A stretch of 64,000 nucleotides of DNA from Acidimicrobiales bacterium (GTDB lineage Bacteria; Actinomycetota; Acidimicrobiia; Acidimicrobiales; JAHWLA01): NCBI GenBank assembly GCA_035536915.1, contig DATLNE010000010.1:62001-126000 (forward strand), written 5' to 3'. Under the pieces are notes generated by a model that did not search any database, was not told where the DNA came from, and saw nothing but the letters and a program-made list of their open reading frames with translations. Positions 23,191-63,273 of this stretch are shown piece by piece. Both the position numbers and the translations under genes were made by a program. Numbering within the stretch: position 1 is the stretch's first letter; each line of letters starts with the position of its first letter.

Positions 23191-23204
23191 GCGACCGGAG
23201 CACG

Positions 23205-25682
23205 ATGCCCGACACGCTGCTCACGCGGGTGATGGCCGAGGCACCCCGCCTCGCATGCATGCTCGACGCCGGCGGCACGGTGACCACGGCCCGGGCCCAC
23301 AACGCGGGGCCGTTGCCCCGGACGGTCGACGACCTCGGCGTGGCTGCCGACGCGGCGCGAGCGGCACTGGGGGGCGAGCAGACGCGCACCTTCGCCTCCG
23401 CCGACGACCGCCTGTACGAGGTGTGGTGCGAGCCGGTGGGCGACGGCGCCATGGTCGTGGTCACCGACCTCACCGACGTGCAGGTCATCGAGGACCGGTG
23501 GCGGGCACTGGTGCGCGACTCGGGCCAGTTGCTGGCCGTGCTCGGGCGGACCGGGAGCCTGGAGTACGTCTCTCCCGCCCTACGCCGCCTCGTGGGCTGG
23601 TCGCAGACGCACCAACCGGCCCGCGTGCCCGACGACACCGTGCACCCCGAGGACCGCCCGCGCTTCCGGGCCGAGCTGACCGAGCTGGTGGCCGCCGGTG
23701 CGCCGCGGCTGGAATCGGAACTGCGGCTGGCCGGCCCGGACGGCTCGTGGCGTCACGTCGAAGTGATCGTCGCCAACCTGGCCGACGACAGCCGGGTGCG
23801 AGGGCTCGTGCTCAACATGCGCGACGTGACCGAGCGCCGCCTGGCCGAAGCCGAACTGCGTCGCCGGGCCCGGCAGCAGGAGATCGTCGCAGTGCTCGGC
23901 CACCGGGCGTTGAGCGGCGTCGACCTCGACGTGCTCGCCTCGGAGGCGGCCGCCATGGTGCGCACCACGCTCGGCGCCGACCTCTCCAGCGTGTTCGCCG
24001 TCGATGCCGAACAGGCCAAGCTCGTGCTGCGCGCCGGGTCGGGGTGGGACCCCGACATGGTCGGCACCTTCCGCCGACCGGTGACGCTCGGCACCCACGC
24101 AGGCCAGGCGTTGGCCACCGGCGCCGCCGTCGTCGTCGAGGACTTGGGCCGCGACGTACGCGTCGAGGGCTCCAACACGTTGCGCCGCCTGGGCATGGTC
24201 AGCGGCGTCATGGTCCCCATCCAAGGAGCCGAACGAGCCTTCGGTGTGCTCGGCGTGCACACCAAGGAACGTCGCCGCTTCGGCGCCGACGACATCCACT
24301 TCCTCGAAGCGGCGGCCAACGTGCTGGCCACCGCGGCGGAACGGCACCAGGCGGAAGAGGAGATACGCCTCCAGTCGGTCCACGACGCGTTGACGAAGCT
24401 GCCCAACCGCACGCTGTTCCTCGACCGGCTGCAACAAGCGCTGCGGCGCAGCGCCCGAAGCGGGCGGACGGTGGCCGTGCTCTTCCTCGATATCGACCGC
24501 TTCAAGGTCGTCAACGACGGGCTCGGCCATGTGGTGGGCGACATGCTGCTCAAGGAGGTGGCGTCGCGGCTGCAGGACCTCGTGCGCCCCAGCGACACCG
24601 TGGCCCGCTTCGGTGGCGACGAGTTCGTGGTGTTGTGCGACGACCTCGACGCCGAGAGCGATGCGGTCGACGTGGCCGAACGGGTGGCCCAGGCGTTGCG
24701 GCGGCCGTTCGTCCTGAGCGGCCGCGAGGTGGTGTCTGGGGCCAGCGTCGGCATTGCCGCCGCAACCGGCAACGACCACGACGGCGCCGAGGCCCTGGTG
24801 CGTGACGCCGATGCCGCCATGTACCGAGCGAAGGACCGAGGCAAGGGCCGTTACGAGGTCTTCAACGAGGCCATCCGCCGCCAGGCGGTGCGGCGGTTGG
24901 AGACCGAGCAGGCCTTGGGCCGGGCCGTGGCCCGCGGCGAGTTGCGGGTCGAGTTCCAACCCGGCATCAACCTGCAGACCGGCAACATCGCCGCCGTCGA
25001 AGCGCTGGTGCGCTGGCAGCATCCCCAACGAGGGCTGGTCGGCCCCGCCGACTTCATCCCCGTCGCCGAGGAGACCGGGCTCATCGTGCCCGTGGGGGAG
25101 TGGGTGCTGGCCCAGGCCGTCGACCTGGCGGCGCAACTGCAGTGGGCGGCGTCCGACGGCGGGGCGATGACGGTGGCGGTCAACCTCTCCGCCCGCCAGT
25201 TGGCCGCGCCGGGCTTGGTCGACCGGGTGGCGGGGTTGCTGCGGGAGTACGACCTGCCGCCGCGGGCGCTGTCGTTGGAGATCACCGAGAGCGTGTTGAT
25301 GGAAGACGCCGAGGCCGCCCGCCGGATGCTCGTGTCGTTGAAGGACGTCGGCGTGTACCTCGCCGTCGACGACTTCGGCACGGGTTACTCGTCGCTCGCC
25401 TACCTGCGGCGCTTCCCCGTCGACGCCTTGAAGATCGACAAGTCGTTCGTCGACGGCCTGGGCCGGGAGGCGGAGGACTCGGCCATCGTGCGCGCCATCG
25501 TCAGCCTGGCCAAGACGCTGGGGCTCGACACGGTGGCCGAGGGCGTGGAGACCGAAGCGCAACGGGACGAGCTCGTCGCCCTCGAATGCACCTATGCCCA
25601 GGGTTTCCTGTGGTCCCCGGCCGTGCCTGTGGCCGAGTTGGAGCTGCTGCTGCGGGCCGAGGTGCCGCTGGCCTCAGCCTGA
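23205..25682 (+). CDS. PAS-GAF-GGDEF-EAL c-di-GMP signalling protein
   Basis: 825 residues from ATG 23205, with GGAG 5 nt upstream and 14 nt after the previous stop. Two N-terminal PAS-like segments come first (about 1-90 and 95-220, the second with VHPEDRPRF and MRDVTERRLAEAEL). A GAF domain follows (about 225-385), then GGDEF with an intact GGDEF at 470-474, and EAL with EALVRW at 599 and conserved NLSARQL, EITESVLME, DDFGTGYSSLAYL. It may both make and degrade c-di-GMP. It forms a probable operon with the FIST and GAF-GGDEF-EAL genes. Confidence 0.92.
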   Translation: MPDTLLTRVMAEAPRLACMLDAGGTVTTARAHNAGPLPRTVDDLGVAADAARAALGGEQTRTFASADDRLYEVWCEPVGDGAMVVVTDLTDVQVIEDRWRALVRDSGQLLAVLGRTGSLEYVSPALRRLVGWSQTHQPARVPDDTVHPEDRPRFRAELTELVAAGAPRLESELRLAGPDGSWRHVEVIVANLADDSRVRGLVLNMRDVTERRLAEAELRRRARQQEIVAVLGHRALSGVDLDVLASEAAAMVRTTLGADLSSVFAVDAEQAKLVLRAGSGWDPDMVGTFRRPVTLGTHAGQALATGAAVVVEDLGRDVRVEGSNTLRRLGMVSGVMVPIQGAERAFGVLGVHTKERRRFGADDIHFLEAAANVLATAAERHQAEEEIRLQSVHDALTKLPNRTLFLDRLQQALRRSARSGRTVAVLFLDIDRFKVVNDGLGHVVGDMLLKEVASRLQDLVRPSDTVARFGGDEFVVLCDDLDAESDAVDVAERVAQALRRPFVLSGREVVSGASVGIAAATGNDHDGAEALVRDADAAMYRAKDRGKGRYEVFNEAIRRQAVRRLETEQALGRAVARGELRVEFQPGINLQTGNIAAVEALVRWQHPQRGLVGPADFIPVAEETGLIVPVGEWVLAQAVDLAAQLQWAASDGGAMTVAVNLSARQLAAPGLVDRVAGLLREYDLPPRALSLEITESVLMEDAEAARRMLVSLKDVGVYLAVDDFGTGYSSLAYLRRFPVDALKIDKSFVDGLGREAEDSAIVRAIVSLAKTLGLDTVAEGVETEAQRDELVALECTYAQGFLWSPAVPVAELELLLRAEVPLASA

Positions 25683-29315: not shown

Positions 29316-29389
29316 GGGCGTTTAGCTCAGTTGGCTAGAGCACTTCCCTTACAAGGAAGGGGTCGGGGGTTCGAGTCCCTCAACGCCCA
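29316..29389 (+). tRNA. tRNA-Val (anticodon TAC)
   Basis: Acceptor GGGCGTT (29316-29322) pairs with AACGCCC (29382-29388); D-arm GCTCAGTTGGCTAGAGC; anticodon stem CTTCC/GGAAG around CTTACAA with anticodon TAC; T-arm GGGGGTTCGAGTCCCT; discriminator A at 29389. The CCA end is not encoded. The 3' end lies inside the recombinase coding region on the other strand, making it the likely integration site. Confidence 0.95.
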
Positions 29390-30956
29390 CCGAGCCTGTC
29401 ATTGTACGAACCGGGCTTTCCCCGGCTTCGGTGCTGACAGGCAGCCCCGGCAGCACGCGGAACGTCGGCAGGATCAGGTCTTTCCGCTCGACGCGTAGCT
29501 CGTGCACGAACGCCTGGGCGACGGCCTTGCGCAGTTCCAGCGGCCCGCCCTTGCTCACGACGACGAGCTCTTCGTGCACGGCGGCGATCGTCTCGACGTC
29601 GGGCAGCGCTCCGGCGTGCTGCTCGGCCTCGGCGTCGGCCAGCAGTTGGACGTGGCGGGCGCGCAGCACCTCGGCGCGCTCGGTCAGCCCGCGCACGCGG
29701 CCGGCGAAGGCGTCGGCGGTGAGCGACCCTTCCTCGAACGCCGCCATCCAGCGCTCGACGGCGGCCTCGACCTTGCGCAACTCGGCCGCGACGGCGGCCG
29801 CATCGGCCTCGTGTCGCGCCGTTGTCATGGTCGTGTGACGCTTCTGTCGCGCTGCGGCGTCGAGAAGGGCGGTCGGCTCGGCGTAGAGGTCGACCAGCGC
29901 GTCGAGAACGGCACGCTCCAAGGCGTCGGCGCGCACGGACTCGGCCTCGCACGCCTGCCGGCCGCTGCGGTTGCGGCTCCAGCAGGTGTAGTACCGGTAG
30001 CGCTCGGAGCGGCCGCGGGCCGACACGCCGACGTATCGCTGGGCACAGCGGCCGCAGCGGACGAGCCCGGTCAACAGGTACTCGCGGTCCCGCGCCCGGA
30101 ACCGGCGGTCGTAATTCTCGCCTCGGGTTGCGAGCGTGGCCTGCACCCGGTCGAACACCGTCGGGTCGAGGAAGGGGTGCTCGGCGCTTCGGTGCCAGGT
30201 GCCCCGGAAGAACACCTCGCCGACATAGGCGCGGTTGCGGAGCATCTCCAGCAGCACCTGGCGGCTCCACAGCTTGCCGGTTCGGGTGCGCAGCCCCGCC
30301 TCGTTCAACTCGCTGGCCAGCGCGGTGCAGCCGACGACGCCCTCGGCGTAGCGACTGAAGACCCGCTCGACCGTCGTGAACTCCTCGGGCACCGTTGCGA
30401 GCCGCCCGTCGTCGTCGAGGCGGAGGCCGTAGGGGAGCCGCCCTCCGGGCCAGCCGCCGCGGGCCGCCTTGCGCTCCATGCCGTTGACGACGCGGTCGAT
30501 GATCGTGGCCCGCTCGAACTCGGCGAAGACGCCTAGCAGTTGCACGAGCATCCGGCCCGTCGCCGTCGAGGTGTCGATGGGCTCGGTGGCCGAGCGGAAG
30601 GCGACGCCGGCGGTCTCCAGCTCCTCCAGCAGGTGCACGAGCACCTTGAGCGACCGGGCGAAGCGGTCCACCCGGTAGACCAGCAGCACGTCGAAGCGGC
30701 CGAGCTTGGCGTCGCGCACGGCGCGGTCGAGTTCGGGGCGGCTGGCCTTGGCCCCGCTCACCTGGTCCTCGTAGGTGGCGGTGTGGACCCAGCCGGGCTG
30801 GGTGGGCACGAACGCCTCCAGCTTGAGCCGCTGGGCCTCCAGCGAGAACGGCTGGTGCTCCTCGTCGGTGGAGATGCGCAGGTACAACGCCACTCGCACG
30901 CTGCGTGCGGGCGTGGTGGCGTCGCTCTTGCGCTTGGGCTGTGCGGTCCGGGTCAT
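29349..30956 (-). CDS. Large serine recombinase (integrase)
   Basis: 535 residues from ATG 30956. Resolvase domain with catalytic Ser29 (VALYLRISTDEEHQPFSLEAQ), YEDQVSGAK.SRPEL and VYRVDRFARSL. A recombinase domain follows (about 165-265, GGRLPYGLRLDDDG), then a zinc-ribbon (LVRCGRCAQRYVGV and YYTCWSRNRSGRQAC) and a coiled coil. The last residues (VGVEGLEPPTPSL) are encoded by the tRNA-Val 3' half, a hallmark of integrases sitting next to their attachment site. The start overlaps the stop of the upstream small gene (ATGA, 30953-30956). Half of the island repeat (29397-29412) lies within its last codons. Confidence 0.93.
   Translation of the reverse strand: MTRTAQPKRKSDATTPARSVRVALYLRISTDEEHQPFSLEAQRLKLEAFVPTQPGWVHTATYEDQVSGAKASRPELDRAVRDAKLGRFDVLLVYRVDRFARSLKVLVHLLEELETAGVAFRSATEPIDTSTATGRMLVQLLGVFAEFERATIIDRVVNGMERKAARGGWPGGRLPYGLRLDDDGRLATVPEEFTTVERVFSRYAEGVVGCTALASELNEAGLRTRTGKLWSRQVLLEMLRNRAYVGEVFFRGTWHRSAEHPFLDPTVFDRVQATLATRGENYDRRFRARDREYLLTGLVRCGRCAQRYVGVSARGRSERYRYYTCWSRNRSGRQACEAESVRADALERAVLDALVDLYAEPTALLDAAARQKRHTTMTTARHEADAAAVAAELRKVEAAVERWMAAFEEGSLTADAFAGRVRGLTERAEVLRARHVQLLADAEAEQHAGALPDVETIAAVHEELVVVSKGGPLELRKAVAQAFVHELRVERKDLILPTFRVLPGLPVSTEAGESPVRTMTGSVGVEGLEPPTPSL
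29397..29412 (-). repeat. Island repeat, half copy F (recombinase/tRNA junction)
   Basis: On the minus strand this reads GGTTCGTACAATGACA, 15/16 identical to the left part of copies A and D. Similarity ends at TGACA, and the sequence then runs into tRNA-Val 8 nt away. This is what a recombined hybrid att junction would look like. Confidence 0.6.
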
Positions 30957-31183
30957 GCCGCGGCTCCTTCGCTGTCGTGGGTGGTCGGGTCCGCCGACAA
31001 GCACACGTCGTCTCCACGCCCCCCTTCAAGCACCGCCCGCCGCCGGCGTGCGTGGGCGAGCAGCGCCGCCATGGCAGCCACGGCGGCTTCGCGCTGCTCG
31101 GGCGTCATCGGCACGTAGCGGGCCACTGCGAGCCGCAGATCGGCGTCGGCGGCGGCTTGGTCGTCGGGTCGGGTCCTCGGCAT
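30953..31183 (-). CDS. Small protein coupled to the serine recombinase
   Basis: 76 residues, ATG 31183 with GGGAG upstream. It is mainly helical (LAVARYVPMTPEQREAAVAAMAALLAHARRRR). Its TGA overlaps the recombinase ATG by the ATGA arrangement, so the two are translated together. No domain recognised; the position suggests an accessory or directionality factor for the recombinase, which is inference only. Confidence 0.6.
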   Translation of the reverse strand: MPRTRPDDQAAADADLRLAVARYVPMTPEQREAAVAAMAALLAHARRRRAVLEGGRGDDVCLSADPTTHDSEGAAA

Positions 31184-31290
31184 CGGCGCTCCCAGGTCGA
31201 GTAGTTGCCTCCACCGGAAAAGACGCGGAAAACCTCGATTCGCGGGTCGGTTCCTCCAGATTTCGCGGATTTCTCCCCGGCCGAGGCGAC

Positions 31291-31329
31291 CTAGGACGCC
31301 TGCAGTCCTACGGAGTCCGGGTTCTCGCC
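31291..31329 (+). repeat. Palindromic repeat near recombinase, copy 1
   Basis: TAGGAC (31292-31297), 7-nt spacer, GTCCTA (31305-31310), then GGAGTC and GGGTTCTCGCC. Same order as copy 2 about 220 bp away. Possible att arms or operators. Confidence 0.5.
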
Positions 31330-31510
31330 TCCCAGGGTTGCAGTGTGGCGACCAGCGCCGTCGCCGCACCGACGCCGTTGCCGGCCTTCTCGCGCACAAC
31401 CCGGTCGCCGGCCCGGTTCCCAGCCCGGCCTCCCACCCGGTTGCCCGCGTCGTTCTGTGAGGCCCCGAGTGGAGTCCTTTTCACGCATCGGTCCGTGCGG
31501 AGGGGAGGAC

Positions 31511-31547
31511 ATAGGACGTTCGAGTCCTATGGAGTCGGGTTCCCGCC
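31511..31547 (+). repeat. Palindromic repeat near recombinase, copy 2
   Basis: TAGGAC (31512-31517), 6-nt spacer GTTCGA, GTCCTA (31524-31529), then GGAGTC and GGGTTCCCGCC. Same layout as copy 1. Confidence 0.5.
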
Positions 31548-31732
31548 ATCCCCACCCTGCGAGGCCGTGACCAGCGTCTTGGCGGTGTCGCGGGTGGCAT
31601 TGGGGGGCTTCTCGCATCCCCCCGGAGATCCCCCCTGACTTCCCCCCGGAGATCCCCCCGGATTTCACCCCCCTCTTTCAGCCTGGCGCGGGTGGAGAGG
31701 GACCGCCGAAGCGGTCCCTCTCCGGAACGCCA

Positions 31733-31963
31733 TCAAGCAGCGGCGTCCTCGGACTGGAAGACGTCGTACCAGTCCGGCCAGACCTCGACCGGGTGCAGTC
31801 CGAGCGCCACGGCCACCGCGTCGGCCGTCGTGGCAGGCAGTCCCCGGCTGCGCCACTTGCTCACCTGGGCGCGCTCACGGCCGAGCGCCCGGGCGAGTCC
31901 GCTGACGCCGCCGTAGCGGCCCACCAGCGGCTCCAGGGACAGTCGCGGAGCCGCGGCCGTCAT
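31733..31963 (-). CDS. Small helix-turn-helix DNA-binding protein
   Basis: 76 residues, ATG 31963. The core YGGVSGLARALGRERAQVSKWRSRGLPATTADAVAVALGLHPVEVWPDW is a Cro/XRE-type helix-turn-helix. Its start overlaps the previous stop (ATGA, 31960-31963). It is likely the island's own regulator or an excision/replication control protein. Confidence 0.75.
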   Translation of the reverse strand: MTAAAPRLSLEPLVGRYGGVSGLARALGRERAQVSKWRSRGLPATTADAVAVALGLHPVEVWPDWYDVFQSEDAAA

Positions 31964-32253
31964 GCGGCTTCCTCGGCGTCGCAAGTGCCGCCGAGCGCCC
32001 CGGCCAGCGCCTCGGTCATGCGCTCCACCAGGGCGTGCAGTACCCCCAGGCCGCACCGGACCGCGGCACGGTCGAGCGCAGGGCCGTCGAGGTGCGGCCC
32101 CACCTCGCCGTCGAAATCCCGCGCCAGCTCGCACGCCTCTGTGGCGAAGGCGAGCACCCGGCTCTCGAGTTCCAGGCCCTCCTCGGTCAGCACGGCGACG
32201 CGGTCGCACAGTGCCGAGGACGGCAGTTCGGACGATGACGTAGCTTCGGCCAT
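31960..32253 (-). CDS. Hypothetical protein coupled to the HTH gene
   Basis: 97 residues; ATG 32253 with GGAGG 8 nt upstream. Acidic and helical, with cysteines at C16, C41, C67 and C91. No family recognised. It is the first gene of a two-gene operon with the HTH regulator. Confidence 0.6.
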   Translation of the reverse strand: MAEATSSSELPSSALCDRVAVLTEEGLELESRVLAFATEACELARDFDGEVGPHLDGPALDRAAVRCGLGVLHALVERMTEALAGALGGTCDAEEAA

Positions 32254-32455
32254 GTCGGTTCCTCCAATACAGGAATCGGCCGGGCCGGGGGCTGTTGACG
32301 CAGCGCCCCGGCCACCAGATTGTTGGTAGGCGGCCCAAGGGGCGCATCACCGGTCCGGGGCTGCGACTGACCGGCACGGGGATGTGGTACAGCCCCTTCG
32401 TCCGCAGATGCAAGCAGTGGGCGCTGTTACCTCTACCGCAGCGCGAGGCCCATAG

Positions 32456-32480
32456 GGTTCGTCCACTGTCAGCCCAGGTG
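32456..32480 (+). repeat. Island repeat, copy G
   Basis: GGTTCGTCCACTGTCA then GCCCAGGT: 21/24 identical to copy A. It lies just beyond the 3' end of the desaturase gene and separates it from the HTH operon. Confidence 0.6.
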
Positions 32481-32496
32481 TCGACGCGCAAGCGAC

Positions 32497-33255
32497 CTAC
32501 TGAACTTGTGGCACCGACCGATCGGTCTGGCGATCTCGCGAAGTCAGAAGTGGGAGCGCGGACCAATGTGCAGACGGATACCTATGGTGTGCCGAGTGGT
32601 AGCCAATATTGAAGGCGATCCATCGGTTGAGGAAGCCATAGTTATCGTTAGCGATGTCGCCTTCTTCGAAAGAACGGCCATCATGGTGCAGCCAGTTAGC
32701 GACAGCCGTGCCCAGCCAGAGAAGTACCCACGGCACCAGAAAAAAGATCACGAATTCGGCCGTTCGGTAAGTGGCTAGCGCAACGGCGAATATGGCAAGT
32801 ACGGCGACGCTCCCGAGGAAGATCGTCTGGCGTTCCCGCTTCGACCAGACGATCGGCACGCCTCGACGCCACGCCCTGCCAGGGAACGTGGCGACGTAGA
32901 CTACAAAATGAACGGGGCGATCAGGGAAACGAGCGCCCTTATACGCGAACGGACTCGTCCAGTCGCCCGGACCGTTGTCATAGCGGTGATGAGTCTCAAC
33001 GTGGTGAGCTCTATACAGATCCACCGGAACCGCCGTCGAGAGCGTCAAGACCATTTCGAAGAGGTTGCTGCATACCCGTCCGTCGAACACGGACTTGTGA
33101 GCCTGGTTGTGCTCCGCGAGGTGTGCCCACCGGCCAGCGAACAGAATGAGCGCCAGCCAGCCGACATGGGCGCCAGAAAGATAAAGCGACAGTTGCAGGA
33201 GCAGCACACCGCATCCCACAGCAACGACGGCGGCATCTGCGCGTCGGCGATTCAT
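32497..33255 (-). CDS. Membrane fatty acid desaturase-like protein
   Basis: 252 residues with the three histidine clusters of membrane desaturases: HLAEHNQAH (about 47-55), HHVETHH (about 84-90) and the distal HSAHHRYPSAHW (about 220-231). Hydrophobic segments lie near 8-42 and 150-190. The di-iron site is complete, but at 252 residues it is shorter than typical acyl desaturases, and the substrate is unknown. Base use is less GC-biased than flanking core genes. Island repeat copy G lies right past its stop. Confidence 0.8.
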   Translation of the reverse strand: MNRRRADAAVVAVGCGVLLLQLSLYLSGAHVGWLALILFAGRWAHLAEHNQAHKSVFDGRVCSNLFEMVLTLSTAVPVDLYRAHHVETHHRYDNGPGDWTSPFAYKGARFPDRPVHFVVYVATFPGRAWRRGVPIVWSKRERQTIFLGSVAVLAIFAVALATYRTAEFVIFFLVPWVLLWLGTAVANWLHHDGRSFEEGDIANDNYGFLNRWIAFNIGYHSAHHRYPSAHWSALPLLTSRDRQTDRSVPQVQ

Positions 33256-33309
33256 CCGCGGCTCAGGTCTGCTTCCAACGTGTCGCCCTGTTCACTACAC
33301 ATCCGATCC

Positions 33310-33323
33310 GTCATTGGACCAAC
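33310..33323 (-). repeat. Island repeat, possible half copy F2
   Basis: On the minus strand GTTGGTCCAATGAC, 13/14 identical to copy A. Like half copy F, it covers the 3' end and stop codon of a minus-strand gene and diverges right after TGAC. Confidence 0.4.
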
Positions 33324-34147
33324 AGCAGGGCAGCGACGATCGAGCCAGCGAGGGCTACCGCCACGAACGCCCACGGGTGGCCACGCACCGTCAAGTACGC
33401 CCTGTGAGTCAGGGAGCCTACTCGGCGGGCAGAGAGAGTAATCGCGTCAGCAAGCGTCTGTTCCCTCGCCCGCGCGACGAAGTAGACGCTGATGAACGCG
33501 ATAAGCGCAGTCGTCGACCAGTACACCCATGGCGCTACGTCACCCGGGAGAGCGGTCGCCTGGTCTGTCTCCGATAGAAGCCAGCCAAAGAACCCGAGGC
33601 CGCCGATGAGGTTGAGCCATGGCGTCAATGCACCCGTCATGATGTAAGGACTCAGGGCTATTACAGCCACGAGGAGAGTTGCGAACGGGCTCGACGTCGC
33701 ACCGCCAGTCTGCTGCACGAGGATCCCCAAGGCTCCATAGTTTCCGAGAGTGATCGCCCACAACGCGACCACTCCGCCTCGCTGACCGGCCGTCGAGGGA
33801 CGTCTCCCAAAGATCGTCGCGCCGAGTCGGGCCAACCGAGCTCCGACCAGAAGGACCCCGAACTCGATAGTAAAAAATTCGCGGGACGGATACTTGGTGT
33901 CATTATCGACGTCCGAAAAGCCGTAAGCCATGCACATCGACACAACGACGACGATGGCGATCGTGGCGACAGTGATCGCTTCCGCTTTCTCCTTGTCACT
34001 TAGGTTCGGCGTTCGCGCATCAGCTTCAAGCGGTTGCGTCACGAGGCCGGGCACCCCCTCGCTACAGCGGAGGAGAGCAGCGTTGTCAACGCGATGTGCG
34101 CTCGTGGCCGCAATCGGCGCGTTGCGACATCTTTCGAGCGGCCCCAC
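33311..34147 (-). CDS. Integral membrane protein of unknown function
   Basis: 278 residues from GTG 34147 (AGGGG upstream); a later GTG near residue 36 is also possible. About six hydrophobic segments: 58-78, 91-110, 125-145, 155-190, 203-225 and 258-277. The N-terminal 55 residues look soluble and low-complexity. No family recognised. It has less GC-biased codon use than its surroundings. Confidence 0.6.
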   Translation of the reverse strand: MGPLERCRNAPIAATSAHRVDNAALLRCSEGVPGLVTQPLEADARTPNLSDKEKAEAITVATIAIVVVVSMCMAYGFSDVDNDTKYPSREFFTIEFGVLLVGARLARLGATIFGRRPSTAGQRGGVVALWAITLGNYGALGILVQQTGGATSSPFATLLVAVIALSPYIMTGALTPWLNLIGGLGFFGWLLSETDQATALPGDVAPWVYWSTTALIAFISVYFVARAREQTLADAITLSARRVGSLTHRAYLTVRGHPWAFVAVALAGSIVAALLLVQ

Positions 34148-34734
34148 TTCACCCCTGTGAGCCTCATGATCGCGTGGTCCCCCCGGAGCAACACGGAGAA
34201 ATCATGTGGGATCCGTTGGTGTGGTGCAAGTCTCGAAGGCCCCAGCTATGACTAGCGAGGCGATTTCGAGGAGCAATAAGTCACTCGCGCGGCGTCAAGG
34301 GCGGACGGGGTGATTCGAGGGCCCAGCCCTGGGCTCTTTCGTCATAGGTCGCCGTGAACGGTCCTTCGTCGTGCTTGCCCGCCGGGTCGGTACTCCTTTG
34401 GTGACTACTGAAGAAGCACTTGCCGAGCGCCTTCCTCGCCGTCGACGCGATCATGCCGTAGGCACCCGTAGGAGCGCCGGGCCTGTCACGAGTGCCGCTT
34501 GGTTCGTCCAATGACAACCCAGGTCCACAGAGAAACGGCCCGGCCGGGGTGTGTTCGTGCACGGTCTCGGCCGCACGTCGTCGCTGTCGCTTGACCAGCT
34601 ACCGCGCTTTCACGGCGCAGTGGCGGAGACGCGCGCATGCCGCGACACCCGACCCGGACCAACGCAGTCACCGGGTCGAGATCGGACCGAGCGGACTGGG
34701 TCCTGCGCTGGTCTGACTCACGTACGCTCTCCGA
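34148..34734. other. Non-coding region with repeat copy A
   Basis: No supportable gene in about 590 bp. It contains a small hairpin followed by TCTTTC (about 34318-34345), island repeat copy A, and the promoter of the DUF3800 gene. Confidence 0.5.
34501..34528 (+). repeat. Island repeat, copy A
   Basis: GGTTCGTCCAATGACA followed by ACCCAGGTCCAC. Differs from copy D at only one of 28 positions although they are 3.5 kb apart and their flanks are unrelated. Confidence 0.75.
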
Positions 34735-35661
34735 ATGGCGTACCTCCTGTTCGTAGACGAGTCGGGCCAGGACCAGGGGGCGTCTCCGTACGAAGTGCTC
34801 GCAGGTATCGCCGTTCGAGATAGCGACCTGTGGCCGCTCATCAAGGAGGTAGGGCGACTTGAGCAACACCACTTCGGTGGTCGTTATAGCGGTGGCGGTC
34901 GTGAGCTCAAGGCGAAGAATCTCCTCAAGAAAAAGGCGTACAGGCAAGCGGCATCTCATGACCCTATCGATGAGGACGAGCGACAGCGCCTAGCGAGGGC
35001 GTGCCTCGACCGCGGCGACGGCGCCGGTCCCAGGATGCAGGCCGCTCTAGCGCAGGCGAAGATCGCGTTCGTTGAAGCGGTTCTCCAGGCGTGTGCGGAA
35101 TCCCGCGCCCGCGTCTTCGCAACGATGGTTCCCCAGAGCGCGCCTCGACCGACGGGTACGGCGCTGCGCAAGGACTACGCGTACCTCTTCGAGCGCTTTT
35201 CCTACTTCCTCGAGGATGATGCCGGCGGGGACCACCAGGGGATCGTGGTCTTCGATGAGCTTGAGCGGTCGCGAAGCCACCTGCTCTTGGATCAAATGCA
35301 CAAGTACTTCATCGAGACCCAAAAGGGTCAGCGCCGAGCAGCCTGGATCATCCCACAACCCTTCTTCGTGCATAGCGATCTCACGACGGGTGTTCAGCTG
35401 GCCGATCTCATCGCTTACATCGTCAGTTGGAACTTCAGGTACATCCAGACCCCCCTGCCAGCCCGGGGCGAACTGGACCCGTTGGGTCGCATCGTTGCCG
35501 ACATGCGCTATCGCGCTGTTCGCGATCAGGATGGCCGCCCAGGCTTCAACATCTGGAGCATCACCAAGATCGACGACCTTCGACCGCGCAGCGAGCGTGA
35601 GCCGAAACAAGAAAAGGCAATGCCGACCGACGGCCGGCAAAGCCTCCGCTTGCAATCCTAG
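34735..35661 (+). CDS. DUF3800 family protein
   Basis: 308 residues. N-terminal LLFVDESGQ (D8-E9-S10), central GIVVFDELERSR and C-terminal TTGVQLADLIAYIV are the DUF3800 landmarks. They sit where the acidic residues of an RNase H-like nuclease fold would be. DUF3800 genes are frequent in prophages and islands, and an anti-phage or nuclease role is suspected but unproven. TACGCT lies exactly 6 nt before ATG 34735, so the mRNA is probably leaderless. The tail after about 280 is basic and low-complexity, possibly a fusion to the following remnant. Confidence 0.82.
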   Translation: MAYLLFVDESGQDQGASPYEVLAGIAVRDSDLWPLIKEVGRLEQHHFGGRYSGGGRELKAKNLLKKKAYRQAASHDPIDEDERQRLARACLDRGDGAGPRMQAALAQAKIAFVEAVLQACAESRARVFATMVPQSAPRPTGTALRKDYAYLFERFSYFLEDDAGGDHQGIVVFDELERSRSHLLLDQMHKYFIETQKGQRRAAWIIPQPFFVHSDLTTGVQLADLIAYIVSWNFRYIQTPLPARGELDPLGRIVADMRYRAVRDQDGRPGFNIWSITKIDDLRPRSEREPKQEKAMPTDGRQSLRLQS

Positions 35662-35714
35662 GGATTTTCGTTACTCCTGGCAAGCGCCTCGGTCGCCTCG
35701 GGATCGCTGCTCTG

Positions 35715-35966
35715 GAGGGGGCTGGCGTTGAACTCACGGCGGACGTCCTCGATCGGATGGCGGCGGACGCAGAGCGAGGGCTGGACGTGACGAAGCTCCG
35801 CCGGCGGCCCGGTCGCCCAGCGATGGGCGAGGGACCGGCCGACACGCTCCCCATCCGGCTCGACCCAGCCCTGCGCAAGGCGGTCGACGACAGGGCAGCC
35901 TCGGACCACACCACGGCGTCCGAGGTCGTTCGCAAGGCGTTGCGCCGCCTCCTCAAGGTCAGTTGA
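35715..35966 (+). pseudogene. 5'-truncated copy of the ribbon-helix-helix antitoxin gene
   Basis: The frame GVELTADVLDRMAADAERGLDV continues to LRRLLKVS and is about 80% identical to the intact gene at 36451-36732, but its first roughly 14 codons are replaced by unrelated sequence. An internal ATG (35757) could still give 69 residues. The similarity continues about 130 bp past the stop, so this is a segmental duplication. Confidence 0.65.
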
Positions 35967-36065
35967 CGGGCACGCGCACCGACGTCACCGGTCGCCGTCC
36001 CCCGATCGAAGGACAGCATTCGGTTCGCTGAGCGTGATCGCCGGCCCGGTGACGAGCGGCCAGCG

Positions 36066-36095
36066 GGTGTTAGTACAAAGACAAGCCAAGTCCAC
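36066..36095 (+). repeat. Island repeat, copy B
   Basis: GGTGTTAGTACAAAGAC followed by AAGCCAAGTCCAC. It also forms the left arm of a local inverted repeat (right arm 36136-36146). Confidence 0.7.
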
Positions 36096-36150
36096 TGGCA
36101 GCCTGACCAGCATCTTCGTGGCAGTCGGGCAGTCTGTACTAACACTCCCC
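36066..36150. repeat. 85-bp structure with 11-bp inverted ends
   Basis: GTGTTAGTACA (36067-36077) and TGTACTAACAC (36136-36146) are perfect complements about 58 bp apart, with weaker pairing inside. It lies directly upstream of the toxin-like gene. Confidence 0.5.
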
Positions 36151-36205
36151 TGGGCTTCTCGGCGTGCCCTCCGGCACGCGGAGTTTCGCGATACGATATT
36201 CGTAC

Positions 36206-36421
36206 GTGGACTTCTACGCCTCCGCACGCAAGCACGGCATCGCCGAAGACGACGCGATCTACGCCGTCGAGCATGCGCTCGTCGCGGCCGAGGACGACGA
36301 GGGCAAGTGTCTCTACCTCGGCCCCGACCGAGCCGGGAACGTGCTCGAAGTCGTCTCGGTGCTGCGCGTGGACGGCACCGAGGTGGTGATCCACGTAGAT
36401 GCGGATGCGCCGCATCTATGA
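36206..36421 (+). CDS. Putative toxin of a toxin-antitoxin pair
   Basis: 71 residues from GTG 36206; TACGAT lies 8 nt upstream. The sequence VDFYASARKHGIAEDDAIYAVEHAL...GKCLYLGPDRAGNVLEVVSVL...IHVDA resembles small BrnT/RelE-like proteins found next to ribbon-helix-helix antitoxins; activity is not established. Its TGA overlaps an ATG (36418) in frame with the downstream antitoxin, giving coupling. Confidence 0.6.
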   Translation: MDFYASARKHGIAEDDAIYAVEHALVAAEDDEGKCLYLGPDRAGNVLEVVSVLRVDGTEVVIHVDADAPHL

Positions 36422-36450
36422 GTCGTGGCTCCGCGACGTTGGAGAGGCCG

Positions 36451-36732
36451 ATGAGTGAAAAGCGAAAGACCTATGGGCGCTCGAAGACGGGCGTCGAGCT
36501 CACGGAGGAAGTCCTCGACCGGATGGCGGCTGAGGCGGAGGAGGGCCTCGATGTGACCCGGCTGCGGCGGCGGCCGGGGAGGCCTGCCATGGGCGACGGG
36601 CCGGCAGACACCCTGCCCGTCCGACTCGACCCAGCGCTTCGAAAGGCCGTCGACGAGCGGGCGTCAAGCGAGAAGACGACGGCGTCGGAGGTCGTGCGCG
36701 AGGCGCTGCGCCGTTACCTCAAGGTCAGCTGA
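36451..36732 (+). CDS. Ribbon-helix-helix (CopG-like) antitoxin
   Basis: 93 residues from ATG 36451, with GGAGAGG 3 nt upstream; ATG 36418 would add 11 residues. The C-terminal half, TLPVRLDPALRKAVDERASSEKTTASEVVREALRRYLKVS, is a ribbon-helix-helix DNA-binding domain; the basic LRRRPGRPAMG stretch precedes it. It is the likely antitoxin and autorepressor for the upstream gene. A truncated duplicate lies at 35715-35966. Confidence 0.75.
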   Translation: MSEKRKTYGRSKTGVELTEEVLDRMAAEAEEGLDVTRLRRRPGRPAMGDGPADTLPVRLDPALRKAVDERASSEKTTASEVVREALRRYLKVS

Positions 36733-36818
36733 ACGGCGTCACCGGTCGCCGTCCCCGTCCCGAAGTGCGGTGTTCGGGGCGCTGAGTTCGACCGCTGGCC
36801 CGCCCACGAGCGGCCACC

Positions 36819-36849
36819 GGGTCTTAGTACATAGACAAGCCAAGTCCAC
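36819..36849 (+). repeat. Island repeat, copy C
   Basis: GGGTCTTAGTACATAGAC followed by AAGCCAAGTCCAC; closest to copy B, with which it shares the duplicated flank downstream of the antitoxin gene. Confidence 0.7.
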
Positions 36850-36887
36850 GAAATCGCTCGGTGTCGTTTCGTCCGCGCAACTGTGTT

Positions 36888-36905
36888 GCATATATGCTAT
36901 GAGGG
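36888..36905 (+). promoter_or_regulatory. Promoter/operator of the XRE-nucleotidyltransferase pair
   Basis: A perfect palindrome GCATATATGC (36888-36897) overlaps the -10 box TATGCT (36893-36898), 7 nt before GTG 36906. This is suited to autorepression by the XRE protein. Confidence 0.5.
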
Positions 36906-37481
36906 GTGAGTTCGCCCTCCGCTCTCGTCCGTGAAGCCCGGATCGCAGCCGGGCTGTCCCGTCGTGCCCTCGCGCTGCGAGCAGGTGTTCCGACGTCGAC
37001 TGTGTCCCGCATCGAGGACGACGACGTCGACCCGACGTTCACGATGCTCGAACGCGTTCTCGCCGCGGCCGGACGGCAGATGGGGATCTCTGCCACGGCT
37101 CTCGACCGCGATCGCACGCTCGCCGGTCTCGTGGACATCTACGACGTTTTGCTCCCGGGCACGGGGATCGACTGGACGCGCCTGCGGGGGTTCATCGACT
37201 GGATCCGGCTCCACCCCGACCAAGCCGAGGCTGCAATCTCCACGCCACCGCCGCGCACCGGCCCGTTCGTCGCCGCGCTTCTCGCCGCCGTGGCGGATCA
37301 GGTCGCACACGACGCAGGCGTCGCATCGCCTCGGTGGACCCGGTCGGTCCCACCACTCCGCGAGGAATGGGTGCCTCCCGGCACCCCGCGGATGGTCGCT
37401 GCCGCACGCCGACGAACGTCCGAGCCCTTCAGGCGCCGCAACATCGTCCTCGCTGTCGACGACCTCTGGCGCGCCGCGTGA
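36906..37481 (+). CDS. XRE-family antitoxin-like regulator
   Basis: 191 residues from GTG 36906. The N-terminal helix-turn-helix SALVREARIAAGLSRRALALRAGVPTSTVSRIEDDDVDPTFTMLERVLAAAG is clear (about 4-57). The rest is helical and family-specific. Its stop overlaps the GTG start of the nucleotidyltransferase (GTGA, 37478-37481). This pairing is typical of two-gene toxin-antitoxin or abortive-infection modules (AbiE-like). Confidence 0.78.
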   Translation: MSSPSALVREARIAAGLSRRALALRAGVPTSTVSRIEDDDVDPTFTMLERVLAAAGRQMGISATALDRDRTLAGLVDIYDVLLPGTGIDWTRLRGFIDWIRLHPDQAEAAISTPPPRTGPFVAALLAAVADQVAHDAGVASPRWTRSVPPLREEWVPPGTPRMVAAARRRTSEPFRRRNIVLAVDDLWRAA

Positions 37482-38029
37482 GTGTCGGCGTCCTCTCCGG
37501 CGAAGACATCCTCGGCCTGCTGGATGCAGTCGCCCATCGGCTCGAGAAGTCCCCCGGTGGCGAGCCTGCGACCATCGTCGTGGTCGGTGGCTCATTCATG
37601 GCCTTGCACGGGCTTCGGGCGGGGACCGCCGACGTCGACACGATCACGCGCATCGACGACCGGTTGCGCAAGGTCATTGAGGACATCGCGGCCGAGCGCG
37701 ATCTGCGTCCGGACTGGCTTAACGATCGCTCGGCAGCGTTTGCGCCTATCGGCCTCGACGTCATGAGCTGTACCACGCTGTTCGAGCGCAGGTCTCTCAT
37801 CGTCCTTGGCCCGCCCGCCCACTTCGTGTTCCTGATGAAACTCTTTGCGGCGCGATCGGTCGACTACGACGACATGGTCGCCCTTTGGCCGGTGTGCTCG
37901 TTCGGGTCCGCGGCCGACGCCGTCAGCCGCTTCTATGCCGCGTACCCTCACGTCGAGCGCGACCCGCACCTCGTCGACTTCGTCCAGGGCATCGCATCGC
38001 AGAGCGGTGGCAGGCCGTCACCCGAGTGA
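37478..38029 (+). CDS. Nucleotidyltransferase-like protein (probable toxin partner)
   Basis: 183 residues from GTG 37478. VVVGGSFMALHGLRAGTADVDTITRID shows the GG/S...DxD pattern of the polymerase-beta-type nucleotidyltransferase fold seen in DUF6036 and AbiEii proteins. Translationally coupled to the XRE gene. AbiEii toxins transfer nucleotides to RNA; whether this one does is inference. Island repeat copy D lies 30 bp past the stop. Confidence 0.7.
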   Translation: MSVGVLSGEDILGLLDAVAHRLEKSPGGEPATIVVVGGSFMALHGLRAGTADVDTITRIDDRLRKVIEDIAAERDLRPDWLNDRSAAFAPIGLDVMSCTTLFERRSLIVLGPPAHFVFLMKLFAARSVDYDDMVALWPVCSFGSAADAVSRFYAAYPHVERDPHLVDFVQGIASQSGGRPSPE

Positions 38030-38058
38030 GAGTGGCGGCGCGGCGAGCAGTGGAACGC

Positions 38059-38086
38059 GGTTCGTGCAATGACAACCCAGGTCCAC
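38059..38086 (+). repeat. Island repeat, copy D
   Basis: GGTTCGTGCAATGACA followed by ACCCAGGTCCAC; one mismatch to copy A over 28 bp. Confidence 0.75.
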
Positions 38087-38690
38087 TAGTCCATCCGGTC
38101 TCCTCGGACGGGGCTTCAGGCTGCGGCCGGTCGAGGATGTCCTGTAGCTCCTCACGGCGACGCGCGCAGACCTGCCCTTGGGTATGGAGCCAACTGTCTG
38201 CAGACGCTCCACGGTGCGTGGTGGAGCTACTACTGCGGGTCAACGACGTACGCCACGCCTCCGTCCACGACGTCGGACCAACGGATCGAACCTGCCTTCA
38301 CCAGTGACGACATCGTGGGTCCGGCCATGGACTTCGAGACCACCTTTCACAACTACTCGTGCTCACTTCGATGCTGCTGGCGACTGTCGGCTGGTTGGCC
38401 AACCACGAGCCGCACCCTCGCCCTCATACACGGTCGTCGCATGAGGGAGACGGGAAGCCACTTGCGGGTGCTTGGCGCCGCCTACGACGAGAGTTTCTGG
38501 GTTCGACGTTGTTTTCGGCCACAGCCGCACGTTGTCCATGTGAGAAAACCGGGAGGACAACAACCCCCTCCGCACGAATGACTCGGGAAACGGAGGAACG
38601 AAGGTCCGGGGGGTTCGGTGCCGCAAGGCTGCTTCATTGCGTACCTCGCGTTCTGGGCCACTCGTGCCAAATGAAAGAAAGAGAAACGCG
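38087..38690. other. Region without an intact gene, possible gene remnant
   Basis: One frame over about 38172-38390 looks protein-like (ANCLQTLHGAWWSYYCGST, later GPAMDFETTFHNYSCS) but has no start and no clear end, so it may be a decayed secreted-protein gene. The rest is unremarkable and less GC-rich than the core. Confidence 0.4.
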
Positions 38691-39281
38691 ATGAAAATGA
38701 CGGGATGGAGAAGGTCGCTTGCCATGCTCGCGGTCGCAGCGGCGATCGTGACTGCGGCGCCGGCGCCAGGGGCACAGGCTTTGAGCACCGTGGTTCGCGA
38801 TGAGGGGCACGGATGGTTCAGCACCACGAACGTCTCGGCATTCGTGGACGTCGCCGGTGCCGCCGACACGCACCACGGCCCCAACTACTGGGAGTTCACG
38901 GTCACCTACCGTTGCAACACCGGCGTGTGGGAGACCTTGGGTGCCAACTCGATCTATACGACCGATGGCAACGCCAGCGCGGGTGACACGTCGGGCACCC
39001 TGGACGTCTGGGGCTGGGGACGGTTCTGCGGCGATGTCGTCGCGCAGCGCTACCACTTCCGCGCCGATATGACCGGAACCACGAGTTGCGGCTCGAGCGA
39101 CTCCGGTCCGACCGTGAGCGCGGGACCGGTCGGTGCCAACTATGCGAAGTTCCGCTGCAATACGGGCCCGGGCACTGCATTGTTCGACTTCTACTCGGCC
39201 TTCGGGGGCGGTTACCACTACAACAACTACACGGGCGGTTCCCGTCTCGAATACTGGAACAGCGTGACGATCACGGGATAA
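38691..39281 (+). CDS. Secreted protein of unknown function
   Basis: 196 residues; ATG 38691 after AAAGAAAGAG. Basic start MKMTGWRR, hydrophobic core and AxA site (APGAQA, about residue 32) form a Sec signal peptide. The mature part is rich in Gly, Tyr, Thr and Asn with four cysteines (C74, C106, C128, C148) that could pair as disulfides, suggesting a small beta-rich extracellular domain. No family recognised. It is alone between repeats D and E. Confidence 0.65.
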   Translation: MKMTGWRRSLAMLAVAAAIVTAAPAPGAQALSTVVRDEGHGWFSTTNVSAFVDVAGAADTHHGPNYWEFTVTYRCNTGVWETLGANSIYTTDGNASAGDTSGTLDVWGWGRFCGDVVAQRYHFRADMTGTTSCGSSDSGPTVSAGPVGANYAKFRCNTGPGTALFDFYSAFGGGYHYNNYTGGSRLEYWNSVTITG

Positions 39282-39318
39282 CCGTGTCGTGACGATTGCA
39301 CCCTAGGCGTCGTTCCTC

Positions 39319-39352
39319 GGGGGGTGAGCGGCGATCGCGCCGCCCACCCCCC
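39319..39352 (+). terminator. Hairpin terminator after the secreted protein gene
   Basis: GGGGGGTG (39319-39326) pairs with CACCCCCC (39345-39352), continued by GCGGCG/CGCCGC across one mismatch, 4-nt loop. Lies 38 bp past the stop; no T-tract. Confidence 0.55.
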
Positions 39353-39597
39353 GATGACATCGACGGAGGGGGGGGAGGGCCGAACACGGCGGCGCTGGCT
39401 CGCCACCCGCCGACCTACTTGCCCAACGGAGCTACGGTGACGACCGGGACTGCCGGTGGGTTGCCACCCAGTGACCCTGACCTGACCCCCTGAAATCGGT
39501 CCACCTGATGGACCGAAGATCGGGGTTCGGCCACCATCACCGTGCCGTAGAACCGTTGTTCGGCGCGATAGAAGATGGGGGCACCCTTGACGCTCGG

Positions 39598-39627
39598 GGT
39601 GTTTACATAATGACACCTCAGGTCCAC
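39598..39627 (+). repeat. Island repeat, copy E
   Basis: GGTGTTTACATAATGACA followed by CCTCAGGTCCAC; intermediate between the A/D and B/C forms. It precedes the VapBC module. Confidence 0.6.
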
Positions 39628-39673
39628 TCGAATCACAACGTTGTAGTTGTCTGGGTGCCGATATGCATGTGTC

Positions 39674-39695
39674 AGCGCCACAATGGCGCTACACT
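39674..39695 (+). promoter_or_regulatory. vapBC promoter and operator
   Basis: Inverted repeat AGCGCC-N5-GGCGCT (39674-39690) abuts a -10 box TACACT (39690-39695) that ends 6 nt before the vapB ATG. Suits autoregulation by VapB and a leaderless transcript. Confidence 0.6.
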
Positions 39696-39701
39696 GGCAA
39701 C

Positions 39702-39932
39702 ATGCCGAGCATCCAGGTGAAAGACGTTCCGGAGGATGTCCACTCCGTGCTACGGCGACGGGCCGGCGCGTCCGGTCAATCTCTGCAGGAGTACCTCCTT
39801 GCCCGACTGGTGGATGAGGCGCGTACTCCCACGCTCGACGAGGTCCTCGGACGCATCGAGCATCGAACGGGTGGCCGCGTCGCCTTGAAGGAAGCCGTGC
39901 GGGCGGTGCGCGCCGATCGCGACGCCAGTTGA
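39702..39932 (+). CDS. vapB: VapB/FitA-like antitoxin
   Basis: 76 residues from ATG 39702. The start SIQVKDVPEDVHSVLRRRAGASGQSLQEYLLARL is the ribbon-helix-helix of FitA/VapB antitoxins; the C-terminal half (TPTLDEVLGRIEHRTG) is the toxin-binding tail. Its TGA overlaps the TTG start of the PIN toxin gene. Confidence 0.88.
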   Translation: MPSIQVKDVPEDVHSVLRRRAGASGQSLQEYLLARLVDEARTPTLDEVLGRIEHRTGGRVALKEAVRAVRADRDAS

Positions 39933-40321
39933 TCGTTGTCGACGCGAGCGTGCTCGCGACCGCTTTGGCGGACGACGACGCCGGTGGCCGCCGTGTGCGA
40001 GAGCGATTAGCCGGTGAACGCCTTGCGGCACCCGAACTGCTGGACCTCGAAGTCATCTCTGCCTTCCGTCGCCTGTGTGCCGCCGGGACACTGACGGCCG
40101 AACGGGCGGAAGCCGCTGTCATCGACCTCCACGATCTCCGGGTCCAGCGAGTGCCCCACCGCCCCCTTTTGGATCGCTGCTGGGAACTGCGCAAGAACGT
40201 GACGGTCTACGACGCCGCCTACATCGCCCTCGCAGAGAGCCTCGATGTCACGCTGCTCACTGCAGATCGCCGGCTCGTCAATGCACCAGGCGCTCAGTGC
40301 AGCTTCGAGTTGGTGATGTGA
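39929..40321 (+). CDS. vapC: VapC-like PIN-domain toxin
   Basis: 130 residues from TTG 39929 (TTGA overlap with vapB). PIN-domain acidic residues are in place: D5 (VVDAS), E41 (LDLEVISAF), D95 (VYDAAYIALAE) and D113 (LLTADRRL). PIN toxins are Mg-dependent RNases that cut tRNA or rRNA. Forms a complete toxin-antitoxin cassette after repeat E. Confidence 0.92.
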   Translation: MIVVDASVLATALADDDAGGRRVRERLAGERLAAPELLDLEVISAFRRLCAAGTLTAERAEAAVIDLHDLRVQRVPHRPLLDRCWELRKNVTVYDAAYIALAESLDVTLLTADRRLVNAPGAQCSFELVM

Positions 40322-40487
40322 CGACGCCCCGCGAGTGATCGCCATTGCCGCGCCGGGCTTCGTGTTCTTGGTCATGGGAGCAGCGTGCGCCTTAGCCCGG
40401 GCGGGCGTCACGTGCGACGTTCGTTACGCGACAACCCGCAGACGCTGACGAAACGCCCCGAGCGTCAGGAGCAACGTCCTCCCCGCA

Positions 40488-62083: not shown

Positions 62084-63103
62084 CTACTCCTCCCGGTCGC
62101 GGTACAGGCGGCGCTGGGCCTTGGTGTGCACCTTCCACACCTTGGTGACTTCCTTGCGAGCCACCGGGTCGGCCCGCAGGCGCTCGGCCGTCGTCTCTCG
62201 CACGAGCTTGCGGTAGCTGGCCAGCCGGGCCGGATGGAGGTCGCCGCTCGCCACAGCGGCAGCCACCGCGCAGTCGGGTTCGACCTCGTGGGTGCAGTCG
62301 GAGAACCGGCATTGGCCCGCGAGGGCTTCGATGTCGGGGAACGTGGCCGCCACGGCATCGTCGCTCGCGTCGGTGCCCAGGCTGCGCAGGCCGGGCATGT
62401 CGATGAGCGAGCCCCCGCTGGGCAGCGGCACCAACTGGCGTGACGTGGTGGTGTGACGGCCGCGGTGGTCGTCCTCGCGCACGGCGCCCACGGCCAGGCG
62501 TTCCTCGCCCAGCAGGGCGTTGACCAACGTCGACTTGCCCGCGCCGGACGGGCCGAGGAACACCGCCGTCACCGGGTGGCGCAGCAGCGCTCGCAACTCG
62601 TCGAGCCCTTGTCCGGCGACGGCACTGGTGGCCACGAGGTCGACGGGGCCCAGGCGGCCCGCCATGTCGGCCACGGTGTCAGGCGGAGCCACGTCGAGCT
62701 TGGTCAGCACCACGACGGGCTGGGCGCCGCTGTCCCAGGCGATGACCAGTTCGCGTTCGACGCGCGTGGACGACAGGCGGTCGCCCGGTGCGGTGATCAG
62801 CACGAGGTCGACGTTGGCGGCCAGCACTTGGCGTCCGCCGTCGGGGTCGAGGCGACCGAGCGACGACCAACGAGGCAAGACCTCCACGACGGCATCGCCG
62901 TCGAGCACCACCCAGTCGCCAACTGCGGTGCCGGGGAAGGGCAGGAACTGCTCGCCGTCGAGGGTGGCGAGGCGACACCAACCCCGCTCCACGGCGACGA
63001 CACGGCCAGGCGCGGCACGGGGGTGCTCGGCAGCGGCGAAGAGCGCTTGCACGCGGTCGGACCATCCGACGGGCGCAAGCGGGTGCTGCAGAAGGTCTGA
63101 CAA
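62084..63103 (-). CDS. rsgA: Ribosome small subunit-dependent GTPase A
   Basis: 339 residues; TTG start 63103 with GAGGAG 8 nt upstream. OB-fold N-terminus, then a circularly permuted GTPase: G4 TKLD (134-137) precedes G1 GPSGAGKST (184-192) and G3 IDMPG. Zinc-finger tail CRFSDCTHEVEPDC. RsgA helps release RbfA during late 30S maturation. Confidence 0.95.
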   Translation of the reverse strand: MSDLLQHPLAPVGWSDRVQALFAAAEHPRAAPGRVVAVERGWCRLATLDGEQFLPFPGTAVGDWVVLDGDAVVEVLPRWSSLGRLDPDGGRQVLAANVDLVLITAPGDRLSSTRVERELVIAWDSGAQPVVVLTKLDVAPPDTVADMAGRLGPVDLVATSAVAGQGLDELRALLRHPVTAVFLGPSGAGKSTLVNALLGEERLAVGAVREDDHRGRHTTTSRQLVPLPSGGSLIDMPGLRSLGTDASDDAVAATFPDIEALAGQCRFSDCTHEVEPDCAVAAAVASGDLHPARLASYRKLVRETTAERLRADPVARKEVTKVWKVHTKAQRRLYRDREE

Positions 63104-63273
63104 ACGGGAGTCTCCTCGGACAGGGGCGCTCCCGGTCGGCTCAGCCGGTGGGAGCGCCTTGCGACAGGGAACGGGCGGCGCCGGCAGTCGTCGGCGTCAT
63201 GGCCCTCCCTTTCGTGTCGTAGGCGTTGGTTCGAACGGTACCGCACCTTCCAAGGCGTTGTTACGCTCGCCCG

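Follow-up and report, generated by a model that had tools for sequence, protein, structure and literature searches.

A composite island at a tRNA-Val gene, probably formed by serial insertion of units through a CcrB-related large serine recombinase

Repeats and modules of the island

The window analysed here is a 64,000-nucleotide stretch of a contig from an Acidimicrobiales bacterium. From a tRNA-Val gene onwards it holds a large serine recombinase (LSR) gene, a series of small modules, several of them toxin–antitoxin (TA) pairs, and a repeat that occurs as left (L) half-sites and, beside the tRNA, as a right (R) half-site. The features are as follows, with the basis of each assignment in brackets.

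29316-29391, + strand: tRNA-Val, its 3' end being the predicted target (ARAGORN)
29389-29412, − strand: 24-nt R half-site (P half, GGTTCGTACAATGACAGGCTCGGT), which with the adjoining tRNA half makes a hybrid att site (exact match)
29349-31004, − strand: CcrB-like LSR (Pfam, NCBIfam, homologues)
31733-31963, − strand: small HTH protein (YdaS/HTH_35-like), adjoining the LSR in relatives too (domain search, relatives)
32456-32479, + strand: degenerate L half-site in which the CCAC core is lost and reads GTCG (sequence inspection)
34364-34500, + strand: remnant of a VapC cassette before copy A (similarity to contig 54)
34501-34528, + strand: copy A, L half-site with CCAC (28-mer match)
34735-35661, + strand: DUF3800 protein, uncertain as a module (domain search)
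35724-36095, + strand: truncated tandem copy of the next TA cassette, with an L half-site at its end (sequence comparison)
36068-36095, + strand: L half-site ending this truncated copy (sequence inspection)
36094-36849, + strand: TA cassette with a DUF4258-like protein (36164-36421) and an RHH antitoxin (36451-36732) (domains, relatives)
36822-36849, + strand: L half-site ending the DUF4258-like TA cassette (sequence inspection)
36850-38086, + strand: module of an XRE antitoxin (36906-37481) and a nucleotidyltransferase (37478-38029) (domains, NCBIfam)
38059-38086, + strand: copy D, L half-site ending the XRE/nucleotidyltransferase module (28-mer match)
39600-39627, + strand: L half-site with an altered outer arm and CCAC, the last clear site of the island (sequence inspection)
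39702-40321, + strand: FitA/VapB-like antitoxin and PIN toxin pair, past the last clear site (homology)

The initial annotation had listed full copies of the repeat at six positions. A copy was present at each of them, but only those at 34501 and 38059 are really full: both match the 28-mer with zero mismatches outside N (0 expected in shuffles), and they are the only two that fit it at ≤3 mismatches (none expected in shuffles). The copies at 32456, 36068, 36822 and 39600 are weaker and have mainly the inner part in common; in the last three the outer arm differs while the inner part (...GACA..CC.A.GTCCAC) is kept. A loose core, GTTCGT-N5-GACAACCC, at ≤2 mismatches, gave six matches in the window against 0.57 expected. 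All L copies in the window lie on the + strand. A further copy at 40419 was discounted for want of the CCAC core; chance or decay may account for it. The inverted left half described at 29397-29412 proved to be exact and to stand at the 3' end of tRNA-Val.

In the rest of the 3.23-Mb genome to which the window belongs, clear copies of the repeat were found only on contig 54 and beside a tRNA-Ala gene on contig 44. An exact 23-mer gave zero matches over 85k species genomes, a set from which the window's own genome and close relatives may have been left out, and a 19-mer at 1 mismatch was found, among 395 genomes of the class, in the window's own genome only. The exact arm is therefore lineage-specific, and the family was traced through the LSR instead.

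The open reading frame of the LSR runs through the att site into tRNA-Val. Its product matched PF00239 (resolvase), PF07508 (recombinase) and PF13408 (zinc ribbon) of Pfam, all over the cut-off, and its catalytic motif (YLRIS) is intact; with these three domains, this motif and a size within ∼500-600 aa it has the make-up of a serine integrase. The best curated equivalog in NCBIfam was CcrB, with 159 bits, and since the cut-off is 900 we regard the LSR as related to CcrB and not as a member. No phage or plasmid LSR of >60% identity was found, the top-ranked phage match being 28.6% identical. The small HTH protein at 31733-31963 is a speculative candidate for a regulator or directionality factor. 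A run of 12-bp units (TCCCCCCGGAGA-type) occupies 31617-31676 of the LSR unit, between the LSR and HTH genes. The same genome encodes a second LSR of the family (L038, G000:C21:197-1699; 47% identity), which is followed by an arm and then a tRNA-Arg-like end at the contig edge.

The first unit of the island begins at tRNA-Val and carries the LSR, and the half-site at 32456 is its probable end. Further along, 34364-34529 is ∼74% identical to positions 1591-1755 of contig 54, and the start of the TA cassette at 36094-36849 is conserved in two relatives, G396 and G001. Five of the six L halves in the window are without a recognisable R half after them, and the R half following the sixth is atypical: the right arm at the 36066 junction is unusually long in form and could be recognised because relatives conserve it. 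The missing partner arms, the truncated tandem copy and the VapC remnant indicate that the island is an eroded composite, partly decayed, and the desaturase, the DUF3800 protein and the secreted protein cannot confidently be called cassettes. No site was found after the FitA/VapB-PIN pair (39702-40321).

Two details of the modules were observed in addition. In the long right end of the DUF4258-like cassette, an arm complementary to the left arm (GTACTAACAC) lies within 36096-36141, ∼35 bp farther out than in other cassettes; this long end is conserved in three genomes (also L048 ∼170-226 and L122). In G001 the homologue of the secreted-protein gene (38637-39281 in the window; L124 1706-2254) lies directly beside the homologue of window positions 62181-63157, and this adjacency suggests that the gene may have been moved or copied from elsewhere in the genome neighbourhood.

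Attachment-site geometry of the recombinase family

Homologues of the LSR were searched for in 84,980 species genomes and 395 genomes of the class, which yielded 46 loci, the window itself and a few duplicates included. The C-terminus is present at 41 of the 46, and at 30 of these 41 an intact tRNA gene stands 3'-to-3' with the LSR gene (Ala 9, Val 8, Arg 4, Glu 4, Leu 2, Lys 2, Met 1). At several other loci the contig ends inside tRNA-like sequence or a degenerate tRNA end adjoins. At every locus with an intact tRNA (30/30, 7 isotypes) the distance between the start of the outer arm motif and the end of the T-arm motif CGAACC is exactly 45 bp; the consensus of the outer motif is GGTTCG, with GGTTAG in one case. 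In tRNA-Val of the window GGTTCGA, the T-arm motif, begins at position 29368 and is 19 nt away from the core CC (29387-29388, inside CCAC 29387-29390), and this T-arm-to-core spacing is the same as at the 30 family loci.

The P half-site reads GGTTCG, 24 nt to the CC core, itself within CCAC, and after it comes a partner arm that runs the other way. Sites with both a left and a right half are 48-50 bp long, and those of 50 bp are built as 24+2+24 around GTGG/CCAC. From the 45-bp spacing and the 50-bp complete sites it follows that the P (attP) half measures 24, the core 2 and the tRNA (attB) half 19. The zinc-ribbon motif of serine integrases has been placed at positions 16-24 of attP and 11-19 of attB, a shift of 5 bp (PMC3783163); the half-sites of 24 and 19 agree exactly with these published positions, and the complete sites with a length of ∼50 bp (PMC3783163). 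On sequence evidence the repeat is thus identifiable as the putative P half-site of an LSR that inserts at tRNA 3' ends. The earlier proposal of an att-like site, tied to the tRNA-adjacent serine recombinase and joining modules, is borne out by this geometry and by the core-precise joins described below.

The crossover, however, had tentatively been placed at TGACA. With the 24+2+19 geometry it should lie in CC instead: homology switches at CCAC, 8-12 bp beyond TGACA, and GGTTCG...TGACA, present on both half-sites, is the predicted outer binding arm. We propose CC only as the probable dinucleotide, given that tRNA-Arg, tRNA-Glu and one tRNA-Lys have a different core. At the target, CCAC presumably comprises the end of the acceptor stem together with A73 and C74 (tRNA numbering). 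The conserved T-arm GGTTCGA occupies the position of the attB zinc-ribbon motif, which would explain why so many tRNA genes are open to a single family of serine integrases.

The arms around the core vary: cassette right arms are mostly 22 nt and not 24, and GGTTCTTATT arms and TGTTAGTAC arms also occur. A second half-site family, GGTTCTTATT...AGGCCCAC, agrees with the main one in its 24-nt spacing; its arms are different, so that in sequence the two have only GGTTC and the core in common. Its half-sites bound the DUF5615/DUF433 cassette and others, and were found on contig 54 of the same genome (L005:230-1022), at L048:1780-1805 and twice in contig 47 of G001 (L123:5737 and 7894).

Distal L halves were sought at all LSR loci and were clear only in L030/L056, L058 and L071. 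The last two are Dormibacterota contigs with a compact LSR element of ∼4.3 kb that has both half-sites (L058:5159-9515, L071:5068-9503); the arms of these half-sites are alike at 15/16 positions, and a degenerate tRNA end adjoins. An identity of the family's sites with attC, which reads RYYYAAC...GTTRRRY and has a terminal crossover, was rejected, as the sites read GGTTC...GAACC and switch at the central CCAC.

Cassettes at other loci and in relatives

The array on contig 54 (L005) is made up of two cassettes, a VapBC-type pair and a DUF433/DUF5615 pair, which are separated by a complete site (GGTTCGTCCAATGACAACCCAGGTCCACAACCAGTCATTGCTCGAACC, 1727-1774); a right half stands at the start of the array (1019-1046) and a left half at its end (2485-2512). 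The tRNA-Ala gene on contig 44 (L013) ends in TCTCCAC and is followed directly by a right half, then by a single VapBC cassette; the left half after it ends in GATGACAACCCGGGTCCAC. These two layouts give the general order [target]CCAC-R-cassette-L-CCAC[next], in which neighbours have one common core.

Three loci of this genome have the same TA cassettes, which in a relative directly adjoin one another, and the homology runs as far as CCAC. Locus L048 of genome G396 has an LSR that is 93% identical over the part of the gene covered by the match. The array there opens with the start of the window toxin cassette. A junction leads on to the DUF433/DUF5615 cassette that is also present on contig 54, and a complete site separates this one from a VapBC cassette, after which a right half follows. 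This VapBC cassette is 91% identical to that at tRNA-Ala on contig 44, and base-level alignments showed that the homology breaks off at CCAC at either end, where the neighbour is a different one. The DUF433/DUF5615 and toxin cassettes likewise recur in relatives. In G001, which belongs to the same genus, the junction region of the window (35983-36238) lies downstream of tRNA-Ala, behind another cassette. One and the same cassette was accordingly seen at different loci and in different orders, with one fixed cut point.

Arrays were found in three genomes. The independent lineage L056 (genome G664) has the same array as L030 (G302), located at tRNA-Val, in which two units, a metabolic one of 3.7 kb and one of 1.8 kb with the LSR only, are marked off by a left half, a complete site of 49 bp and a right half; all four arm matches of the G664 genome fall within this array. 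Empty sites were sought in two relatives and none was found, because the flanks are too little conserved in them. Genome G396 also has two tRNA-Ala 3'-half fragments 4.7 kb apart (L129:927-977 and 5600-5649), which may mark the borders of another island that targets tRNA genes.

Assembly of the island and related systems

Judging from these comparisons, we consider it probable that the segment from 29389 to ∼39627 is a composite island formed by serial LSR insertion at the tRNA-Val 3' end, with TA cassettes presumably inserted in trans. The inserting enzyme would belong to the CcrB-related LSR family and have the tRNA-Val 3' end as its site. The mobile unit would be a circle with an attP of 48-50 bp, laid out as L(24)-CC-R(22-24) with arms reading GGTTCG inward, and the attB half would be made up of the T-arm GGTTCGA, 19 nt from the core, and the acceptor-stem end (CCAC). 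Integration would give tRNA-CC-R ... L-CC-downstream, and units joined together would have a single L-CC-R junction in common. The cassettes of ∼0.75 kb, mostly TA or PIN-toxin pairs, would be non-autonomous, their movement and excision presumably catalysed in trans by the LSR. The L-R junctions could result from insertion beside an earlier unit or from attL x attR recombination between neighbours, and a directionality factor would take part, perhaps the small HTH protein adjoining the LSR. Standard LSR rules alone do not yield attP-like L-R junctions on insertion, which counts against serial insertion as the explanation, as do the R halves missing from the window, the 22-nt right arms of the cassettes and the other arm families around the same core.

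The initial annotation had also offered serial decay of integrated elements. In its ordinary form, a few large elements integrated at tRNA-Val by LSRs, one after another, would have decayed; the repeats would then be what is left of their att ends, and the small modules surviving fragments that do not move. For the window this is partly right: partner arms are absent from most modules, and both the truncated tandem copy (35724-36095) and the VapC remnant before copy A are found. Against it, cassettes of ∼0.75 kb with both ends intact recur at separate loci and in varying order, with cuts at CCAC at either end, and one of them stands alone at tRNA-Ala. We regard decay as an unlikely account. 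The MITE family raised at the same time, or a transposon family with terminal inverted repeats that targets CCAC, would agree with arms that are inverted at the unit ends and with CCAC at both ends, as in a target duplication. The copies per genome are few, however, their arms are in fixed register with tRNA T-arms, with the LSR gene and with other cassettes, the genes enclosed are different and unrelated, and adjacent units have a single common core; this alternative is disfavoured and very improbable.

The array had been called integron-like, and so it is in appearance: small TA cassettes form arrays joined at imperfect palindromes with varied arms. We give almost no credence, however, to a true integron or CALIN, with folded attC cassettes moved by a tyrosine integron integrase. 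No match to TIGR02249 exceeded the cut-off in four genomes (best in the window's own genome 39.5 bits against 265), the sites track the LSR gene, an enzyme of another class, and no attI was seen. The crossover is central and not at one end, and the polarity GTT...AAC is opposite to that of attC.

Serial LSR insertion is best read as a process like that of SCC elements and ssrA islands, the nearest systems described so far, generalised to many tRNA genes. The ssrA islands of Dehalococcoides have a CcrB-like serine recombinase (DsiB) with a gene overlapping the RNA gene 3' end, and form tandem series with and without an integration module, att being repeated at each boundary (PMC3146451). The tandem units at an RNA gene, the integrase overlap and the integrase-less units are features in common. 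The ssrA islands are large, use one RNA gene and insert in the T-loop with a 20-bp direct repeat, whereas the family described here uses many tRNA isotypes, inserts at the acceptor end with a core of ∼4 bp and has single-operon cassettes at several loci of one genome. SCC elements (CcrA/B/C) are similar in that CcrB is the best curated model and composite element arrays occur at one att site. The target of SCC is protein-coding, in contrast to the tRNA 3' end used here by one recombinase with no CcrA partner seen beside it, and no match exceeded the CcrA/B/C cut-offs (best 159 bits against 900). Integration of serine recombinases at tRNA genes has been called rare, with Mycobacterium AICEs at tRNA-Leu and phiRSM1 at tRNA-Ser (PMC3218068); these elements also integrate at a tRNA gene but are isotype-specific and without cassette arrays, unlike the present family. 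In a large survey of LSRs, tRNA targets go unmentioned in the main text (PMC10083194).

The targeting of T-arms of multiple isotypes by one family is new, as are TA cassettes of a single operon that turn up at several loci with their ends cut at the core; no description of such targeting together with recurring cassettes was found in a literature search that covered some but not all journals. We suggest tentatively that the CcrB-like LSR family acts as a counterpart of integrons, collecting, excising and reordering ∼0.75-kb non-autonomous TA cassettes in trans, with the near-universal tRNA T-arm as attB, at several tRNA genes per genome and between species. Cassette arrays in Actinobacteria would thus be built without an integron, by a route that can be tested. 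The fixed 24+2+19 geometry makes att sites of the family predictable from sequence alone, and integrases that address tRNA genes are a possible use. Elsewhere in the window, three paralogous stretches of ∼1.2 kb within 21894-25554 and 50094-51252 were judged by eye to encode ordinary GGDEF-EAL signalling proteins.
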